Assembly: GCA_037042185.1 (NCBI GenBank)
Contig: JAXQJY010000030.1
Coordinates: forward strand, 930,001 to 994,000
Direction of reading: 5' to 3'
DNA from: Sordariomycetes sp. S80-01Y
Lineage: Eukaryota > Ascomycota > Sordariomycetes
DNA length: 64,000 nt
Shown piece after piece: positions 20,137 to 58,628 of the stretch. The translations under genes were made by a program, and so were the position numbers. Each line of letters starts with the position of its first letter. The first letter of the stretch is position 1. The notes below the pieces were generated by a model, which worked only from the letters and a program-made list of their open reading frames with translations, had not been told where the DNA came from and did no database searches.

Positions 20137-21597
20137 TCACTGCAGCTTTCCCAAGACCTGCTCTGCCGGAATTATCATGGCCATTTTCTGAGCGAACGTC
20201 GTTTGCCAAGGGTAAAGCATGTTGCTTGCCCAGATCCCCGCCAGGACGGCGAAGACCAGCAATATGGTGGTGACCACGCTCCTCGGGGTCGACGGCTCGC
20301 CAAACGCCCCCAGCTCCGTCATCTTCCCGATAGCGGGCGTGTACTGGAAATCGAAGCTGGCCGAGTGGCCGAGCCCGCCCAGCCGCTGGCTCTTGATCAT
20401 CTCGTGTCCGTACGCGATGAAGCGCCTCACCTTCCTGTCCTGCCAGCTCTGCGGCAGCAGGGGATGGATGGCGCTCATTGTGTTCAGCATCCAGCACTGC
20501 AGATTCGCGAGGGCGCTGTAGTAGGCGCTGGGCTTGTCGATGCCCAGGGAGCTGGCTAGGCACTCGCCGTTCAGCTTGTATGTTAGGGCGGCGAGGTATT
20601 CGCGGGAGGAGTTCAGGGGTGGGACGTTGACCTGCGCGGTAAGGATGTTGTTGGCAATGATTTTGGAGTTCTTGCTGGGGCCGAGCTCAGAGGTCATGAC
20701 TGACTCCATCATGGCTTTTGCTAGGCCGGGAGATTCCATCCAGTCGACAGGGGTGCCCATGATATGGCCGATCCATCGCCATAGAGCGAGATAGTCCATC
20801 GTTTGTTCTTCAGTCAGGTACACGCCCTGTCGGGGAAGGGACATGTACACCAAGGCAGTAGAGTAGGCATCGATTGTTCCAATCTGGTGAAGATCATTGA
20901 TGGGGATACCCCAGGCTTCAGTGTTGTAATAGTCTGGCTTCTCTCTGGCGAGCCTCATAATCCTCCGACGAACACTGGCGTGTAGGAGACGGACGCGTAC
21001 AGAGGACATGTAGCCTTTGCCGCCTGGTTTGACGGAGTCGAGGCTCTCGATGCACTCGAGGAAGTGTTGCGAAGTTTCGAGCAGACGGCGACGGGTGACT
21101 TGGACGCCAAAACCTCCGGTGCGAGCGAGGGTTTCCACGACCCGCCAGGCGGCCATGCCTCCTAGCAAGGAGTTGAACAGAAGCTAGCACCGCGTCAGTA
21201 CAACTGTTATGAGACGAGGAAGCTGACTTACACCAAGCAACATCTGTCCATTGTACTGATAGACCAACTTCTGGCCCCGTTCAATCCTCTCCCAGTCCAC
21301 CCATTCGGGGACTGTATTGATCTCGGTCCACAAGGCATGCAACGTCTTGTCTTTCTCGTGATGCTCCTCCAGCAAGTTGTATAAGTCCCTCTGGCTCATG
21401 GGGCACTTCCTGCCATCTTTCGGACCAGGCGGGGAAATCTCGTCGAGGACATCCAGGGAGTCTGTTGCGAGCTTATCGTATGTGTACAGGAGCTTTTGGA
21501 TGTCGGTAACCTGAGGGTGCTGCGCTGTCCAGACAAAGTCATGGCCGCAGATTGTGCCTTTCGTGCCGGGCTCCTGATCGACTGTGGAGGTCATCAT
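20137..21597 (-). CDS. MpaB-type (DUF2236) oxygenase, copy 1
   Basis: Two exons, complement(join(20137..21183, 21232..21597)), 470 aa; 48-nt intron with a GTAAGT donor and a GCTAG acceptor. It belongs to the ER-bound oxygenase MpaB/MpaB'/rubber-oxygenase family, in which MpaB cleaves a farnesyl side chain in mycophenolic acid biosynthesis (established for that member). Family hallmarks shared with the copy at 57225: VPEWVDWERIERGQK, TGGFG, SLDSVKPGG, RVRLLHASVRRRIM, the GTIDAYSTAL region, YLALWRWIGHIMGTP and a C-terminal transmembrane helix (TTILLVFAVLAGIWAS). The start MMTSTVDQ was chosen by alignment with the paralogue's N-terminus; upstream in-frame codons are not conserved. The substrate is unknown. 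No clustered biosynthetic genes are visible beside this copy. Confidence 0.88.
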
Positions 21598-36201: not shown

Positions 36202-39200
36202 ATGGCTGAGGCAGCGCAGGCGCAGGCAAGCGCTGCCCTCTCCCCCCAACGAGGTATGTGCCCGTCCCGCAGTCCCCTCCGATCGTCGCATTCTAGTCTG
36301 GGTATTGCCGGCAACTACAAACAGTTGGCTGACGGGGAGCGAGCAGATATAAAACAGGAACCGAACGCTCTTGATCACTTTGACTTTTCAATGGCAGACC
36401 ATTCCACGACACAGTTCAACGGACCTGTCGAACCCGCAACGCCGACGGCCCCAAATGGCACTCCAGCCCCAGCCACCCACGACACGCCGGTCGCGAATGG
36501 GACGCCTACTCCCGCCCCGAGTCTAGCTCTTCCTGCACCGCCCATGTCGCCTACAAAAAGGGCTAGAAATGACATCGAGGCCACGGTTGAGTCGCCAGAG
36601 GCGAAGCGACCGAAGACTGAAGCGCAGAACGATGCGCCCGCGACGCAACTGCACATGCCTTCAAGTTCAGCACCAGCACAGCCTGCGACTCAGACACAGT
36701 TGGCAATGCCGCAGCCCACTCAGACTCACCCACCCGCGCATCCTTCAGTCGCAAGCCACTCGCATGCTCTAGCTCTGCCTCAAGCTCAACCCCCATCGCA
36801 ACCAACGACAACTCAAATACAGCCAGCCGAGCAGGCGCAGGCCCAAACGCAAGAACCAGCCCACTCATCAGTCGAAAGCCATCCGCTTCAGGAATTCTCA
36901 GCTCACAGTCAACCGCTGGAGCCATCGTCGACTCACAGCCAGCCAGCAGAAGACGATTATGATGAGCAGATGAACCTGTTGGTCCAGAATGCGCTGTCCA
37001 ATATCAATGACATGATGGACCAGTTCGATCCCGAAGCGGAAGATCAGGAAGCAGGGGGTGCAATGGGCGGACAGTCTGAAGAGAAGGAGCCGATCAGCTT
37101 CATTGACGAGCCGTCGAAGTTCACGCACAACAACTTCATTAACGCCCTCGGAAATACGGCTGTTGCTATGCTCCTATTACTCTGTTCAAAGCCCCACGAT
37201 GACATGGTTGCAAGGCTAAGAGACTCGAATTCGGAACATCGACGGTGCCACACGCAATACTCGAAAACGTTAGAGGCGCTCAAGCTTCATTACTCCGATA
37301 AGAGCATTTTATTGGCTTCTGACTACGATATCCGATCGGATATGGCTGGAACAATAATCCAATTTGTCAACCTAACGCAATTGGGTGAATGGCTGCTCGA
37401 TGGCAGCTTCGACTCAATATGCGAGGCCGACAGGAATCTGCCCAAAGTTTTCCGAGATGAGAGGCTTGGATTGACGCAAAACATTGTCAACCTTATGATG
37501 GGTATCAAAACACAGCGCTTGATCAAAACTGTGCAATCAAAGGAGGACAAGAAACTTTCAGAAGAGGAGCTGCAGGGCATATTCCTTGAGAGCGCCGAGA
37601 AACAATTAGAGGAGCATGGCATTACAAACCTTGTTCATGGCTCCGATAAGACAATCACGAGTTGCCTGAGCGAGCGGGTTGAGGAGTTGCGAAACCTTAC
37701 TGCTGAAACAAATATCATAGGTTCGTCTCTAAGGTGTGGCGTCGCGATCAGATTTACTGACACGAAACAGAAAAGTACTCGACGGCAGAGCTCCTGCGGA
37801 CGTTCTGCGAGTATGCTAACAACCAGCTCGCCGTGGCAGAACAGTTGTCTGAACGTCTTGGCTTCACGCGGCCAAAGTTCGAAGAGCCTGCTGTATCTAA
37901 CGAGCCGACCGCAGAGGATCTGCTCGACTTCGCTTCGTTCTTCGAAAAGAACACTGAAGAGATGATTCAGAACACATTAGCAGGCCTGGAAGATCTACCA
38001 CCAGATGTTCCCACTACGACGAATGGTGACATGCCAAACCCACCTGCAGGAGACGGACCAAACCAACAGACCGAAGCTCCTCAGGCCAACGGCAGCTTTA
38101 CTGACTATAAAGATTTTGAAGCCCTTGTAGCCGAGAGCACCTCCAATTACGTCAGGACAACGTTGCAAGGTCTTTCCCCGACGCCCTACCAACCAAAGGT
38201 ACCAACCAGCACAAGTACGTACCACGAGAGTCATACAATCCTCACCGGCTAGACTACTGACCATTTACAGCGGAGAGCATGGCCGCCCAAGTACAACAGG
38301 CGAATCACCTGAACAACACTCAACAACAAGCGCAGCAGAATTCTTACTACCAAACATATCCTCAGACCGCTGTTGACCAGCAGCAGCAGCAGCAGCAACC
38401 TCAGCAGTTGCAAGTGCCGGATCAACAGCCTCCCCAGCAGACGCACGGCCAAGGCTTACCGCCAAACCAAACATGCTCTAGCGCTCAGCTGTATGAAAAA
38501 GCCAGGCAAGCCGCATTGAGCCGCAGTACGGCACACACTAGACGGGAAGGCCTCCATTCGACGCGACGACCGTGGTCTCAGGAAGAGGAAAAGGCCCTCA
38601 TGACTGGACTTGACATGGTCAAAGGTCCACACTGGAGCCAGATTCTGGGCCTTTTCGGTGTTAATGGCACTCTTTCGGATATCCTCAGAGACCGCACCCA
38701 GGTACAGCTTAAGGACAAAGCGCGCAACCTCAAGCTTTTCTTTCTCAAGACGAACTCTGAGATGCCATTTTATCTCAACAGCGTTACCGGAGAGCTGAAG
38801 ACGCGCGCACCAACACAGGCAGCCCGAAAGGAAGCCGAGGAACGGGCCCGGCAGAATTCCCATGAAGAACAGGCCAAGCTTAACACGATTATGACTTACT
38901 CCAGTGGGTTGCAGCAGTCACCGCAGAACCGGACCCATGCTGGCGGCGTCGTAGCCCCTGCTCATGCAGCAGCTCAAGCGGCAGCACAGAATCGAACACC
39001 TGCACAGGCTTCGCCCCCTCAGATGTCATACAATGCTGGGTCAGTGCCTTTTTCATCTACACAGCAACAGCCTATACAGGGCTACGGCACGCAACCCGTA
39101 TCACAGGTCCACCATGCGCAGACGCAACCGCACACGCCAAGCCCACAATCGCAGGCCCAGCCCCCTATGACCAACGGCTCCCAAGGCAGTCCTCACGAGC

Positions 39201-39739
39201 ACAACGATCAAACTGTGAAGCAGGAGTCTCACAACCACTCTGACACAGACGCGTACGATCAGCAGTCCCGAGCGCTCTTGGAGCAGCTTCAAAGAGTTGC
39301 CCACGATCAAGTGTCAGCCCAGACAACGCCGTACAACACGCAAGCCAGTCAACGGTTTCCCTCACCGGGCCCCGAACAAAAGGCCAGCGTATCGCAATCC
39401 CCGGCGCCCGGTAGTACGACCATAGCCACGCCGTCGCAACCACAGTCTCATCAGCAGCACCTGCCGACAGCAAACCAGTCGCACAATCCTTCTCAGTCAC
39501 CTGCTCCAGGACAAGCAGGGCCATCGAGCTCCTCAACGCCGGCACCGCCTGTTCCAGCCCTCCACATGGCGGAGGCCCCAACATCGGCTGTGGCACCAAA
39601 CCAGGTCGCCCCATCCGTGGAGCAGGACGGGGGCGCGCCGCCGGCTGATCCAGGGGCAGAGGCCGAGTTCGTTGGCTTCGACGCAGACGCTGAAGCTGCT
39701 CTACTCAGAGACCTTCAAGCTGCTATGTCAGACCCCTAG
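36202..39739 (+). CDS. TBF1: TBF1-like telobox protein (TRFH-like plus Myb)
   Basis: Exons 36202..36253, 36347..37720, 37771..38214 and 38271..39739, 1112 aa. The first intron (93 nt, GTATGT...GCTGAC...GCAG) is a multiple of three with no stop, so retention would add 31 residues. Family role: binds TTAGGG-type repeats at telomeres and promoters. A disordered Pro/Gln/Ala-rich N-terminus is followed by a helical TRFH/Tbf1-type dimerisation domain (37105-37960; [36 protein letters not shown]). Then come a Gln-rich linker and one Myb/SANT domain (38555-38745) with the telobox helix [15 protein letters not shown]. The C-terminal 330 residues are Gln/Pro/Ser-rich, ending in an acidic [16 protein letters not shown]. 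Confidence 0.88.
38378..38398 (+). repeat. Polyglutamine CAG run in TBF1-like gene
   Basis: Seven Gln codons (six CAG and a closing CAA) in the linker before the Myb domain. A short microsatellite that could vary in length between strains. Confidence 0.8.
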
Positions 39740-40607
39740 AGTGGCACGCCGCTTGAGCAGGCTGAAGTGGGCCTCGACATACTTGATGAGCATGCTCTTC
39801 TCAGAAATATTGAGTCCACATTTGGCAATATCCTTTCTCATCACGAGAACGAGCACGACTCAGATCGAGATGGCAGCGATTGAATATGTCCATCTTGCGT
39901 CTGTTGCCCCAGAAAGATGAGGGTTGAAACAGAGCCAATTTGCTTGAGACTTAATAGCGAACTGTGTAAGGAGACGCCGATCACCGGAGTACCTACGCGA
40001 ATCTGGCTATCAACGTTCATAGCACGATTCAGGGCAAGCGGGGCTCGATGCCAGCGGCAAGATACAATTTGCTATGGGGCAATCTGGTTGGGCCAACGCT
40101 GCAACACAGAACCACCTTTCACAATGTCCCGGGATTTATATCCCGTGTATCACGCACTGCACGTCGCCTGACGCCACCCTATCAACGACTCACGAGCGAA
40201 CAAGTTGCGTATATTTTCTATATGACACTTTGTGTTATCAGCAGCAAGAAGGAAAAGCGAAGAGTTCTTTTCTCACGACATGATACCACGGCACGGCGAA
40301 ACGAACTGGGCTTGGGTAATGAACTTATTATAGGAGTTGGGGGGTTCAAAAGAGAAGGCTATAGCGAGGTGATAGGGATTGAGAATCAATAAGCACACTG
40401 CCGTTGGACTTGGACTCTACAATGAGCGTTTCGAGAACTAACGACGTCGTACAATGCATGTGCAGGGCCGGTACTAATCAGCAGAAGTCTACAGGCCAGT
40501 TGACCGGCCTCTAGAATTCGCGGCGCTATTTTGTTCAATAAGCCGCCCATTCTCTCACCGAGTGTAATTCTCTTCGTAAACATCGCCCTGTACGATGTCG
40601 ACCAAGG
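39740..40607. other. Intergenic
   Basis: Between the TBF1-like gene and the Cys/His-module gene, both on the plus strand. AT-richer, no supportable gene. Confidence 0.5.
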
Positions 40608-42281
40608 ATGCCCCCTCCCACAACGTTCCATCAATCCGACTTTGCCTCGCCTGCACGAGACGCAATGGTCATCTTCAACATTAGCTGTGTCTCTCGCACC
40701 CCATCGCCAGCAACTTCCAACGCGTCCACGAACGGGACGCCCGATGGCTATAACACATACAACTGGCACTACGGCACAAACATGAACAATCACGACCGAT
40801 GGGTTGCGGTGCCCAACATTTCTCATCCAGTTCACGTCCAGGATATCCGACACGCCATGGAAGCCCGCAGAAATGGCGTTTGCAACGCACCCTTCACTGA
40901 TTGTCAAAACCCTCCGACTAAACAGAACATTGGCGGTGTGATGAAAAAGATGCAGTTCTGTGACTACCACGCTTGCGTATACTTCGACGAGGACGGCAAG
41001 GTTTGTTCGAATCCCAAGAAGCCCGGGAACGACCGTTACTGCGGTGACCGTGAGTTCCACCCATCACCTCAAGTGTGTGCCCAGAGCTAAAGGGTGCAGA
41101 CATGACATGTACGTATGAAGAACTGTGGAGTGACCGAAGTGATCATAACGTGAAAGACAATGAACCCTTCCGCAGCAACTACAGCGGCGGCCGACGTGAG
41201 TCTCGGACTTTATATGATCTCTTCCATTTCTGACATTGCAGATATATGCCGGAACAGCGGCTGTAGCCGCCCACGCGATGATGTCGGTCGCCTCGCAGAC
41301 TACTGCTCCGAGCATTGCTGTGCTGACCCGATGTGCAGAGCCGCCCGCGGCCACGGTCCCTACTGTCCCGAACATACCTGCGAAGCTTCTGGCTGTTTTG
41401 CATTTGTCGAACCTAGCGTGCGGCGATGCCATCGGCATCGGGAGTGCGTAGCGGAGTGGTGTAGCCGAGCTTGTCATTTTCGGGCTGGGGGCGTCATAGC
41501 GCCATACTGCTCTGATCACTGCTGTGAGTTTGGCTACTGCGAAAGCAGGAGAACCATGGGTAGCAGCTACTGCCATGAGCATAAATGTGATGAGCGGGAC
41601 TGTGGGAGGAGCAAGGAGAGCGGGAGCAGGTACTGTAGCAGACACATGAGGGGTGGTAGCGGAGATGGAAGAGACAGAGATAGGGACGGTGCATACATGG
41701 GTGGAGGATCGTACGGAGAACGAAGCTTTGCCGCCGGAGCTTTTGCAGGGACATGGGCGGGGGGAGTAGCGGGATTTGGTGGTGGGTCGACCCCTTTTTC
41801 TCACCCCTTTTTCCCACCCCTCTTTAGCTGATAAGGTGGCTAACTATGGCGTCCAGACCCGGGGCGATGTAGAGAGCCCGGATGCTACGAGCGGATAATG
41901 GGAGGCATGCCGGTTGCGAGCTACTGTGAGAATCACATGCGGTGTGTGCTAGCAAGCTGTGCCGTCGTCGTGCCCGGCGGCGGGATGTGCTGGGAGCATG
42001 GACGGTCGGCCAGGCAGGCGGGTTGGCAGACACGGAATTGGGAGCATATTAACCAAGAGAGGGAAGAACGCGAAAGACGGGAGCACGAGGATCAGCAGAG
42101 GAGGGAGCGCCAGGGGCGTGACAGATGGGATAGAGAATGGCAAAGAGGGCCTGACTGTCGTGAGCCGTACTACGAGGAGCGTTGGGAGCGGACGCCGAGA
42201 TGGCCAGCGACGGGTTGGCGGCAGCCTGGTCGCTCCAGGGACAGGGACGACTGGTACGCTTTTGGAATGCGACGGATGTAA
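40608..42281 (+). CDS. Cys/His-module array protein, unknown function
   Basis: Proposed exons 40608..41049, 41100..41108, 41157..41195, 41242..41781 and 41857..42281: 1455 nt, 484 aa, in frame throughout. Introns of 50, 48, 46 and 75 nt carry GTGAGT/GTACGT/GTGAGT/GTGGGT donors. About ten modules of the form C-xn-C-xn-(Y/F/R/M)C-x2-H are seen, two in exon 1 and eight later ones strictly C-x4-C (for example CADPMC..YCPEH, CEFGYC..YCHEH, CREPGC..YCENH). Splicing intron 1 turns RYCGDR into RYCGDH, restoring a module histidine. Each module offers four zinc ligands, so a zinc-binding chain is likely (inference). A Gly-rich linker lies before the last two modules, and the tail is Arg/Glu-rich. The pattern recalls the C-x4-C...C-x2-H repeats of plant and oomycete WRKY19-like zinc-finger proteins. 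The start is uncertain: an ATG at 40595 is in another frame. Confidence 0.75.
40881..41999 (+). repeat. Array of about ten Cys/His modules
   Basis: Protein-level repeat spread over exons 1-5 of the gene at 40608-42281. The later eight modules begin ICRNSGC, CCADPMC, TCEASGC, ECVAEWC, CCEFGYC, KCDERDC, RCREPGC and RCVLASC, each followed by C-x2-H (YCSEH, YCPEH, RCHRH, YCSDH, YCHEH, YCSRH, YCENH, MCWEH). Spacing between the second and third Cys varies from about 8 to 17 residues. Confidence 0.8.
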
Positions 42282-43859
42282 GGTTCGGTTTTAGCTTAGG
42301 GACGAGCCGAATGGGTTGTTTCCTTCGAGCGCAAGATGTCAGACTGCCCGTACACTCGTGCAAAGCAATATCTCGCGACAGCTCCCCCACTCACGCGTGG
42401 TGCGCGTACAGGTCGAGCGAGGCGTCCAGGCAGAGTTCACAGCCCCTCTGATGAGTCCATGTCATGATTTCCGCATTGGTTTGTTCAGAGTCAGGAGGAG
42501 TCTGCCATGCCACGCCGCCCGCGCTTGATGAAGGCGAGACTGTGGACAGACGCGCGGCTGTGCAGGTCCAGAACCCGGGATAGCCGCGATGGGAAATTAC
42601 ACAGGCAGACTTTGGTAGGGTGGCAAAAAGCAGAATAACTCAGAGCCGCCGCACAGGGGAGTGAAACTGAGGGAGAGGGTTATTGATGTTGGACGGGGTG
42701 TGGCTGTGGCTGTGATTGAGGCTGACGGGGGAGCACAAGGACAGGTGGGGTGACTGTACTGTGTTGAAGCTACCAGAACACTGTTCCCTAGACCGGCTTC
42801 TTTAGCTCTACCCCACCACCTCGATGTCTAGTCTTGCTAAGAATGCTACTGTGCACAGTGCGAAAGGCTTCCCACCCCATCGTCAACTGACCACGAACGA
42901 CACTCCATCCGCTTCATCACGACCACCTGGCACCAGCACTTTGCTTCCCGCCCCTGCATCATGCCGCACCAAGGCAGTCTCCCGCAGCAAACGAACGCAT
43001 CCGCGCCGGCTTCAGAAGCGATTTGTCGAGGTCAAACGGCGCGTTCCTGGCTGCCCCGAACCAGCACTTCTCATCATTCTATCCTCGACCAGTGCATCCA
43101 TCTCGACCGAGCCCAGGCGCAGGAAACCTGCGAACCCTCGAACATGTTGGTACTCCTGTAGCAGGTCAGCCTACCTTATGTGGCCTCGTTCTTTGAGACA
43201 TTATGCCATGCTTTTCAGCCTCGTGCCTCGCCCATTACCGAGCACGGCGCAACCAGTCTTGAGCAAACAGCCTCTCGGTAACCACCTCCTCCTCAAGCAA
43301 CCCCCCCTTTGCACCCACACACTTCCGCTTAATATCCCACCCACGCGGGGCTTTTTTTCATCTTTGGCAAACGCTTTCCGCATGCAGACGCCTCGTGCCT
43401 GGTGGTTTTGTCCGTTTGACGATGGGCGTGTGGGGTTTGCACTTTAGAGGTTCAGACAGGGGAGGGTACCGTAGGCTACCCTAGCAGATGGGCCTGGTGA
43501 TGAGGTACGATCCTCTTGGGCGAGCTGCCTTGTAGTGTTGCGTGAGTCTTCTGGACGTCAGGTGCAGAGATATAAGTGTATCTTTTGATCATATCTACTT
43601 GTCCTCGAGACTCGACATTAGTCACTTGCGAGATGCCCTGTCCCTCGTCTGGGCCTACTTCTACCTTGACGTTTCCGTAGACTGCTTTTCGATTCTTGAT
43701 CTGATTTTCCATCTTTGAATACGACACTACGCTAGCTCACGACGCGGCCGCTCCTACGACTGGCCACAAGCTCGACTCAACCAAACCCGCACCACCGCCA
43801 CGGTGGGTGCCGCAGCCTCCGTCCCCATCGAACCCAAAGTCGTCACTACCCAAAAGGAA
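42282..43859. other. 1.6-kb intergenic
   Basis: Contains one long plus-strand ORF with an ATG (42824..43447), but its composition is low-complexity Pro/Ser/Arg without domains, so I do not call it. The last ~140 bp are open in the frame of the next gene without an ATG. Confidence 0.45.
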
Positions 43860-44564
43860 ATGTCCCCCAAGTTCTGGGTCGAAGCTCAATCATCCGGCAA
43901 ACCCCATTTTGTTAAAATCAAGCGCTCCCGCTCGCATCACCACCACCACCATCACGACAACCACGACGGCCACCACCACCATCATGGGCATCGACATCAC
44001 AAGCGCCGCCATTCCCACTGGGATGAGGAGTACTGCCCGCCGCAGTACTACACAGTCAGTCGTGAGGAGTGGGATGTGCTGAAGGAGCGGGAGCGCTTGC
44101 TGAACGAGAACAACAAGATTCTCACGGAGGAGAACAAATGTCTGCGGGGGGACCTGGCCGCCGCCCAGGATGAGGTGCAGAGGCTAACCCAGTGCATCGT
44201 TCCCGAGATCCAAGCTAGGAACGACGCCTTGTACGCCGAGAACGCGGGTCTGAGGCGGTCGCTAGACAAGGCCGCCGACGATGCCGCGAAGCACCACATC
44301 GAGCTCGATCGGTTGCAGTGCAAGATCGACAAGCTAGAGCGGGACTGCAAGAAGTTCGAGGGCGACAACTGCGACCTGCGCTCGCGCATCAAGAGCTTGA
44401 CCAGGCAGCTGGACGACAGATGCAACCGGCGCATCGAGGATCTGATGCGGGAGGTGAAATACTGGAGGAACAAGTTCCTGGATCTGGAGGAGGTGCTTGA
44501 CCTGAGGACGCAGAGGATGAAGGCCTACGAGGACATCATGCGATGCCGCGGGATAAGATTTTGA
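43860..44564 (+). CDS. His-rich coiled-coil protein, unknown function
   Basis: Conservative start at MSPKFW gives 234 aa. Residues 1-25 (KPHFVKIKRSRS) are basic. Residues 26-53 are a histidine-rich block (H7, H5 and further His), a likely metal-binding or membrane-surface segment. A Tyr/Pro turn (EEYCPPQYYTVSREEWDVL) leads into a long coiled coil from about residue 70 to 215 (KERERLLNENNKILTEENKCL, then LERDCKKFEGDNCDLRSR). In-frame codons continue upstream of the ATG: a GTG at 43803 would begin VGAAAS, which as MGAAAS fits an N-myristoylation signal. So the true N-terminus is open. I have no functional assignment. Confidence 0.75.
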   Translation: MSPKFWVEAQSSGKPHFVKIKRSRSHHHHHHHDNHDGHHHHHGHRHHKRRHSHWDEEYCPPQYYTVSREEWDVLKERERLLNENNKILTEENKCLRGDLAAAQDEVQRLTQCIVPEIQARNDALYAENAGLRRSLDKAADDAAKHHIELDRLQCKIDKLERDCKKFEGDNCDLRSRIKSLTRQLDDRCNRRIEDLMREVKYWRNKFLDLEEVLDLRTQRMKAYEDIMRCRGIRF

Positions 44565-56990: not shown

Positions 56991-57224
56991 TGTTCTGACC
57001 GGTTTTCACTCTATGATGTCTCACCGTGGTGACCTGATGTCAGACGCAAGAAGGATGTTCGAATGCCTATGACTTGGGAGGAGGGGGAGGTTGTCGCAGG
57101 AAGTTGAGTCATGTCGCTCCATCGAGTCCTAGACTTCATTATCCAGTTCTCCTCAACGGCTTCACACTCACTTACACTTACACTTCCTTATACTACTTCA
57201 CAAATCTCGACCCATCGAAGAAAA

Positions 57225-58628
57225 ATGTCATCCCACAAAGTAGGCAACTATACGTTCCAATGGACCTCCCAGCATATGTCAAAAGAAGACGCCGAGGCTC
57301 TGAAATATCAATACGATGAGCTCGGAAGTCAAACTGCTACAAAGCTTCAAGAGATCGCCAAATCAGCGAAAGAAGGCTCTTCATCTTCGCTCCCATGTCA
57401 CATGGATCTTTATGGGTTGCTCAGAGACCATCGCCATGGGGACTCAACGCTTCAACAATTCTGGGAAGAGACGCATGCTGTCCCAGATTGGGTTGACTGG
57501 CAGCAGATCGAGCGCGGACAGAAGTTTCTTTACCGGTATGCCTTAGGGAACCTCATGGGCTTCGCCTTGCAAGGGTTCATGGGCGAGAACACTGCCGCGC
57601 CGGGCATCTCAGAGGTTTTGATCAGGACGGGAGGCTTCTCGACTCGGACACTTCTGCGACGCCTTTTCGAGACTTTTCAGTTTCTTCTGCAAGTGACAGA
57701 CTCGCTCGACTCTATCAAGCCTGGCGGCGATGGGCACGTCACGACCATCCGAGTCCGCCTCCTTCATTCCATGGTTCGCGAAAGGATCATGAGGATTGAG
57801 AATGCCCAAGGTGGCTATTTCGACATGAAAGAGCTTGGAGTTCCGGTCAGCACCGTGGGATCCATCCACTCCATTACCACCTTTAGCTGCAATCACTCCT
57901 GGTTGCAGCTCCCGTTCATGGGCGTCTATCCAACACAAGAAGAGACCACCGACTACATTGCTCTGTTCAGATACATTGCACACGTTATTGGTACGCCGAC
58001 CTCATACTTTGAAACGACAAGCAAGGCAAAAGCCACGATGGAGAGCATGCTCGTCAACGAGTTCCGTCTCAACGAAACCTCCCTGGTCGTGGCGCACAAC
58101 TTCATCCAGTGTTTGACAGATTTGCCGCCATTAAACGTCTCTGCTCAGTTCATAGAGGCTGGAAGTAGGAAGCTGAACGGAGACGAGTTTTGCGACAAAA
58201 TTGGTCTTGGCCGCCCTGGGGCCTACTCGTATGCCTGCTTCAGGGGGTTCTGCTGGCTAGTTCGCACACTAGCACTCCTACAGAAGTTCATTCCTGCTTT
58301 TGACCGGGCAGTCACCGGATACTTTAAGCGGGCTCTCCACGAAGCAGTCATCAAGAGCAAGAATGGTCTCTCTGGGGGGTCAAAACTGGAGTTCAAGCAC
58401 GTTCCACAAATGGGCAAGCTGGTTGGCAAGGAGAGTAATGATCGAGCTCCACCAATGTTTGTTCTTTCAAGACCAGTGGAAGCTTTTCTATTTGGTGTCT
58501 TTGTTTCTGTATGGTCTCTGGTTCTTTTGCTGTTGTTGATGGGTTACATGTTAGTTTCTAGTTACTCAGGAGGACTTGGAGTGGCACACTCACTCCACTG
58601 GATGGCATCGTTCGATATCTTGTCATGA
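57225..58628 (+). CDS. MpaB-type (DUF2236) oxygenase, copy 2
   Basis: Single exon, 467 aa, the same length as the copy at 20137-21597 but intronless. Conserved family blocks: VPDWVDWQQIERGQK, LIRTGGFSTRTLLRRL, SLDSIKPGG, RVRLLHSMVRERIM, YIALFRYIAHVIGTP and KLNGDEFCDKIGLGRP. The C-terminal helix VEAFLFGVFVSVWSLVLLLL suggests ER anchoring. The MPA-pathway member of this family oxidatively cleaves a prenyl chain; here the enzyme stands 1.4 kb upstream of a terpene synthase on the same strand, so a terpenoid substrate is a reasonable inference. The start MSSHKVGNY aligns with copy 1; an upstream in-frame ATG at 57111 has no conservation. Confidence 0.88.
   Translation: MSSHKVGNYTFQWTSQHMSKEDAEALKYQYDELGSQTATKLQEIAKSAKEGSSSSLPCHMDLYGLLRDHRHGDSTLQQFWEETHAVPDWVDWQQIERGQKFLYRYALGNLMGFALQGFMGENTAAPGISEVLIRTGGFSTRTLLRRLFETFQFLLQVTDSLDSIKPGGDGHVTTIRVRLLHSMVRERIMRIENAQGGYFDMKELGVPVSTVGSIHSITTFSCNHSWLQLPFMGVYPTQEETTDYIALFRYIAHVIGTPTSYFETTSKAKATMESMLVNEFRLNETSLVVAHNFIQCLTDLPPLNVSAQFIEAGSRKLNGDEFCDKIGLGRPGAYSYACFRGFCWLVRTLALLQKFIPAFDRAVTGYFKRALHEAVIKSKNGLSGGSKLEFKHVPQMGKLVGKESNDRAPPMFVLSRPVEAFLFGVFVSVWSLVLLLLLMGYMLVSSYSGGLGVAHSLHWMASFDILS

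Follow-up and report, generated by a model that had tools for sequence, protein, structure and literature searches.

The gene at 40608-42281 on the forward strand of the window (the whole 64-kb stretch of DNA that was analysed) encodes a protein of 500 residues built around ten Cys/His modules. The preferred reading, with a probability of about 0.5, is that the modules are CCCH mini-fingers that bind zinc and are arranged in tandem, and that the protein would act as a nuclear scaffold with several sites for binding RNA, DNA or a protein partner. Zinc binding by the modules is proposed with fair confidence from their invariant ligands. The nuclear, RNA-related or complex-forming role is suggested more weakly by the tail of the protein and by the nearest finger families.

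Gene structure

The gene probably belongs to a filamentous fungus, to judge from the gene content and the style of the introns. The sequence-only reading is corrected here in that the gene contains three introns. As seen in Table 1, four exons join in phase into one frame of 500 codons, from the ATG at 40608 to the stop codon ending at 42281, and all three introns have GT...CAG ends. Splicing itself is deduced from these signals. Two features favour the four-exon model beyond the open frames alone. A CTAAC branch-like site lies in intron 3 a little upstream of the acceptor, and the junction of exons 1 and 2 (C|AC) creates the codon CAC, whose His completes the C-G-D-H of module 2.

Table 1. 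Exons, introns, modules and flanking regions of the gene (window positions; residues of the joined protein)
Feature	Position	Strand	Description
Exon 1	40608..41049	+	N-terminal region, module 1, most of module 2; open frame from ATG; GTGAGT donor at 41050
Intron 1	41050..41099	+	50 nt; GTGAGT...GTGCAG
Exon 2	41100..41195	+	spacer without full module; frame in phase with both neighbours
Intron 2	41196..41241	+	46 nt; GTGAGT...CTGAC...TTGCAG
Exon 3	41242..41781	+	modules 3-8 (six consecutive strict modules) and Gly-rich linker; open frame
Intron 3	41782..41856	+	75 nt; GTGGGT...GCTAAC...GTCCAG; in-frame stops removed by splicing
Exon 4	41857..42281	+	modules 9-10, Arg/Glu-rich tail; open frame to TAA
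Module 1	40881..40970	+	C-x6-C-x18-C-x2-H, residues 92-121
Module 2	40974..41101	+	C-x9-C-x11-C-x2-H, residues 123-148; second Cys = 133; split by intron 1
Module 3	41247..41315	+	C-x4-C-x13-C-x2-H, residues 182-204
Module 4	41319..41375	+	C-x4-C-x9-C-x2-H, residues 206-224
Module 5	41379..41438	+	C-x4-C-x10-C-x2-H, residues 226-245
Module 6	41445..41519	+	C-x4-C-x15-C-x2-H, residues 248-272
Module 7	41523..41582	+	C-x4-C-x10-C-x2-H, residues 274-293
Module 8	41586..41645	+	C-x4-C-x10-C-x2-H, residues 295-314
Module 9	41868..41936	+	C-x4-C-x13-C-x2-H, residues 364-386
Module 10	41943..41999	+	C-x4-C-x9-C-x2-H, residues 389-407
Gly-rich linker	41652..41781	+	residues 317-361, last two codons finish in exon 4
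Mixed-charge tail	42006..42278	+	residues 410-500

Organization and divergence of the modules

The joined protein has ten C-x2-H ends, at residues 118, 145, 201, 221, 242, 269, 290, 311, 383 and 404, in agreement with the earlier count of about ten tandem modules. However, the strict order C-x4-C-x(9-15)-C-x2-H is found in eight of the ten, and the two N-terminal modules have a wider first spacing (x6 and x9) and so depart from the C-x4-C form. Inside the runs formed by modules 1-2, 3-8 and 9-10, only 1-2 residues separate each His from the first Cys of the next module.

The array far exceeds chance expectation. Its pattern occurs 12 times (overlaps counted) in residues 126-470, compared to a mean of 0.24 and a largest value of 5 in 20,000 shuffles of this stretch. 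At the DNA level, 4 copies of the C-x2-H-x-C-x4-C pattern are present in the 64-kb window, where 0.18 would be expected; all 4 lie within the gene, and none of 100 shuffles reached this number.

In an alignment of the eight strict modules, invariance is confined to the four ligand columns. In the non-ligand columns, 87 of 531 pairs (16%) are identical, compared to 8% predicted from composition, and Tyr precedes the third Cys in six of the eight modules. The fixed Cys/His spacing with a variable remainder, noticed previously in eight modules, is thus confirmed. Direct repeats of at least 14 bases were looked for in the gene and none was found. Recent repeat expansion is considered unlikely on this ground, and the modules appear to have diverged anciently while their ligands were kept.

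The protein holds 36 Cys and 24 His in its 500 residues. Six of the Cys fall outside the module sets, and two of these immediately precede a ligand Cys. Such a composition would suit a metal buffer, in which many Cys bind several ions in the manner of metallothionein and store or detoxify zinc or other metals. Metallothioneins have C-x-C clusters, however, whereas the Cys here form regular CCCH sets with the His always at C-x2-H. Similarity in the non-ligand columns is also about double the level predicted from composition, and a long mixed-charge tail would be unexpected in a buffer. On these grounds the explanation is improbable.

Among the extra Cys, residues 205 (41316-41318, +) and 273 (41520-41522, +) stand immediately ahead of the Cys that opens modules 4 and 7, respectively, whereas residue 257 (41472-41474, +) lies inside module 6. 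At the joins with Cys 205 or 273, the first ligand could possibly be the neighbouring Cys instead.

Codon use and antisense frames

Codon use backs the gene weakly. In exons 1 and 2 the assumed frame has the highest score of all six frames. Within exon 4 it ranks first of the three forward frames, yet below one reverse frame. In exon 3 another forward frame, which contains 4 stops, scores higher, as does each of the three reverse frames. For synonymous codons in the joined sequence, the assumed frame reaches -11.1, the shifted forward frames -26.4 and -25.7, and two reverse frames +6.2 and -1.8. The composition, heavy in Cys, His and Arg, accounts for part of the poor codon score but not for all of it. 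On the reverse strand, two open frames, one of 224 codons at 40386-41060 and one of 246 codons at 41064-41804, overlap much of the gene. They are probably mirror frames, though reverse frames surpass the sense frame for synonymous codons.

The weak codon bias, the higher scores of reverse frames and the overlapping antisense frames are what would be expected if the stretch were decaying or non-coding and the module pattern a relic. Against this stand three in-phase introns with the usual splice signals, a ligand His built at an exon junction, and ligands that are invariant across eight diverged modules whose duplications, in the absence of long direct repeats, look old. A relic is therefore considered very improbable.

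Linker, tail and N-terminus

The Gly-rich linker and Arg/Glu-rich tail reported in the sequence-only reading are both present. The linker has 15 Gly in 45 residues. The tail of 91 residues contains 23 Arg, 13 Glu, 7 Asp and 8 Trp with no Lys. RNA-processing proteins carry similar mixed-charge tails, and it is because of this resemblance that a nuclear scaffold is proposed as the most likely role.

The high Cys content could also be that of a secreted protein rich in disulfides. By hydropathy, however, no N-terminal stretch of signal-peptide strength was found, the highest mean of any 15-residue segment that starts within the first 40 positions being 0.91, and this makes a secreted role less likely. 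The regular C-x2-H ends and the Arg/Glu-rich tail also argue against secretion, and this explanation is regarded as highly unlikely.

Relation to known zinc finger families

The whole 500-residue protein gave no listed match to Pfam (HMMER, E up to 10), in a search whose filters discard most weak matches, and this applies also to the Pfam scans of its pieces. Neither the whole protein nor modules 7-8 matched PDB sequences, and the two arrays had no match in NCBIfam. Seven two-module units (1-2, 3-4, 4-5, 5-6, 6-7, 7-8 and 9-10) were scanned against Pfam, and modules 7-8 are the only unit to pass a cut-off. They match zf-TRM13_CCCH (PF11722) at 1.3e-4 with 21.9 bits, slightly over the cut-off of 20.9, and the best stretch extends from about the second Cys to C-x2-H. 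For the same family, the piece of modules 6-8 (0.022), module 7 alone (0.012) and module 8 alone (0.0052) all fall short of the cut-off.

Further matches of modules 7-8 remain below their cut-offs: zf-C3Hc3H (PF13891; E 0.006, 17.3 bits, cut-off 27), WRC (PF08879; 0.01, 15.9 bits, cut-off 28.6) and GcrA (0.018). The sole match of modules 1-2 was to a primase finger (0.2), and that of modules 9-10 to Zf_WRKY19 (PF24906; E 0.11-0.13, 12.5-12.8 bits, cut-off 27). Nothing was found in Pfam for units 3-4, 4-5, 5-6 and 6-7, the entire exon 3 array, modules 3-5 or 5-7 taken as pieces, or modules 3 and 4 singly. Neither the whole protein nor any scanned piece of it had a listed match to the EsV-1-7 repeat (PF19114, cut-off 25 bits).

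When modules 7-8 were shuffled with Cys and His fixed, none of 10 shuffles matched TRM13, C3Hc3H, WRC or GcrA, and 2 of 10 hit other families, at 0.021 and 1.9. The TRM13-type resemblance thus draws on more than the positions of Cys and His. It is not proof of descent because one unit was chosen among several and a chance family reaches 0.021.

TRM13 is a tRNA methyltransferase whose CCCH finger adjoins a methyltransferase domain. In contrast, ten modules are present here, and no Pfam match to a methyltransferase domain, expected beside a TRM13 finger, was obtained for the 500 residues. The zf-C3Hc3H family, of INO80D/KANSL2 type, has paired CCCH units and two fingers, compared to the ten modules of this protein. 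According to passages of PMC6607013, KANSL2 belongs to the NSL complex and its Arabidopsis counterpart is an INO80 complex subunit D-like protein.

A weak resemblance to this family would fit a scaffold of the sort found in chromatin or RNA-modifying complexes, with fingers that bind protein partners and not nucleic acid. The array is also nearly neutral, with a net charge of +3 in 136 residues. Such a charge is not favourable to strong binding of nucleic acid and makes protein binding a serious rival. On the other hand, the zf-C3Hc3H match stays well under its cut-off. A scaffold for proteins only is therefore possible but less probable than the preferred reading, in which RNA, DNA or a protein may be bound.

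A WRKY19-like character had been suggested for the array. The spacing is indeed similar, C-x4-C...C-x2-H in both, but the Gly-rich motif that follows the His in WRKY19 fingers is missing here, PF24906 gives at most 12.8 bits, and a genome-wide search with it listed five places without this gene. The gene was likewise absent from the genome-wide listings for PF19114, PF11722 and PF08879, and a search of the genome with zf-C3Hc3H (PF13891) gave no match up to E 10. By sequence, the TRM13 CCCH finger, and then zf-C3Hc3H and WRC, appear to be a closer lead than WRKY19, one that the sequence-only reading had not named.

The EsV-1-7 repeat of brown algae and their viruses, C-x4-C-x16-C-x2-H, has the same tandem C-x4-C-xn-C-x2-H order as the modules. 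Its profile unit of 35 positions, however, has a long stretch of about 12 residues after the His, compared to 1-2 residues here. PMC7457493 and PMC12993054 describe a repeated motif that Ectocarpus IMM and the virus EsV-1 protein EsV-1-7 have in common.

A module profile searched against PDB gave five matches with E 0.68-4.3, to GcrA, three AMPK sequences (ten residues aligned) and ZIC3, and none of them was taken as support. The C-x9-C-x2-H end of the GcrA C-terminal domain (PDB 5yix) aligns with the profile at E 0.68, which is not significant. GcrA is described in PMC7403470 as a bacterial protein binding the sigma factor.

Family matches elsewhere in the genome (L006-L015) were discarded, their six-frame translations showing no module with the spacing that was sought. 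Among these loci, L013 passes the zf-TRM13_CCCH cut-off with in-frame neighbours, across a stop codon.

Search for copies and relatives

The home genome was searched as a 30.9-Mb assembly of 16 contigs. Among the best candidates scored, no second copy was found, and the four matches are all exons of the gene itself. For the exon 3 array, 5 pattern stretches in viral contigs and 40 in bacterial and archaeal genomes contained no relative by tblastn, and neither of 2 stretches found in viral contigs for the N-terminal region is a relative. In the literature, no title among the matches listed concerns such a fungal array, which does not in itself establish its absence.

Structure prediction

The six-module array, modelled by AlphaFold from a single sequence, has a mean pLDDT of 41 and consists mostly of helices. 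A model of a two-module unit was obtained with a mean pLDDT of 65. It was built on three alignment rows taken from six two-module units, three being used because MAFFT misaligned the six. Short strands are predicted in both modules, and a four-residue helix adjoins C-x2-H in the second module only. The two models, both of low confidence, thus disagree, with helices in one and a strand/hairpin pattern in the other. Foldseek gave no match against PDB, and VIA-align returned nothing either. The repeated metal site claimed in the sequence-only reading is well supported by its invariant ligands, but the models are too poor to show it.

For comparison, the U11-48K CHHC finger is reported to be a hairpin plus helix and is likened to the CHHC finger of TRM13 in a review (PMC10608323). 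That CHHC finger of TRM13 differs from the CCCH finger matched here.

Proposed nature of the protein and its novelty

In the preferred reading, each module would probably hold one zinc through Cys, Cys, Cys and His, and may fold as a small hairpin and then a short helix at its C-x2-H end. Linkers of 1-2 residues would turn modules 3-8 into a stiff rod, with the Gly-rich stretch as a possible hinge toward modules 9-10. Combined with the Lys-free tail rich in Arg, Glu and Asp, the array could form a nuclear scaffold with several binding places for an RNA, DNA or protein partner. The nearest finger families are known from RNA-modifying and chromatin proteins.

The repeated C-x4-C...C-x2-H order is already known from WRKY19-type fingers and EsV-1-7 repeats. 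What appears to set this protein apart from both families, as these are generally described, is its combination of short linkers with a Gly-rich hinge and the tail. The arrangement is uncommon, and the protein is most likely a variant of a familiar type of zinc finger scaffold. It is rather doubtful that it represents an undescribed fungal family of proteins whose ten CCCH zinc modules, joined for the most part by one or two residues, are stacked as a continuous zinc-pinned rod for the modular binding of a repetitive ligand (RNA, DNA or polymeric protein). Should zinc binding and stacking of the modules be real, they would provide a new layout of modular finger array, with linkers much shorter than those of EsV-1-7 or WRKY19. 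This would suggest a common minimal unit behind the scattered CCCH-type fingers of TRM13, C3Hc3H, WRC, WRKY19 and EsV-1-7.

Neighbouring frames in the window

The next frame downstream, 43803-44564 on the forward strand (open from 43719), has a long His-rich run followed by a coiled coil. Its six Pfam matches are to coiled-coil or related families and all lie below cut-offs, the best being HAP1_N at 4.4e-6. It is a possible metal-binding neighbour of the array gene. Upstream on the same strand, the frames 36202-37965 and 38279-39739 match a telomere repeat-binding factor (TRF) domain at 1.6e-7 and a Myb-like domain at 9.1e-5, below cut-off, and are perhaps exons of one telomere-binding protein. 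The window also contains two MPAB_Lcp_cat (rubber oxygenase type) frames, at 20137-21168 on the reverse strand and 57111-58628 on the forward strand.
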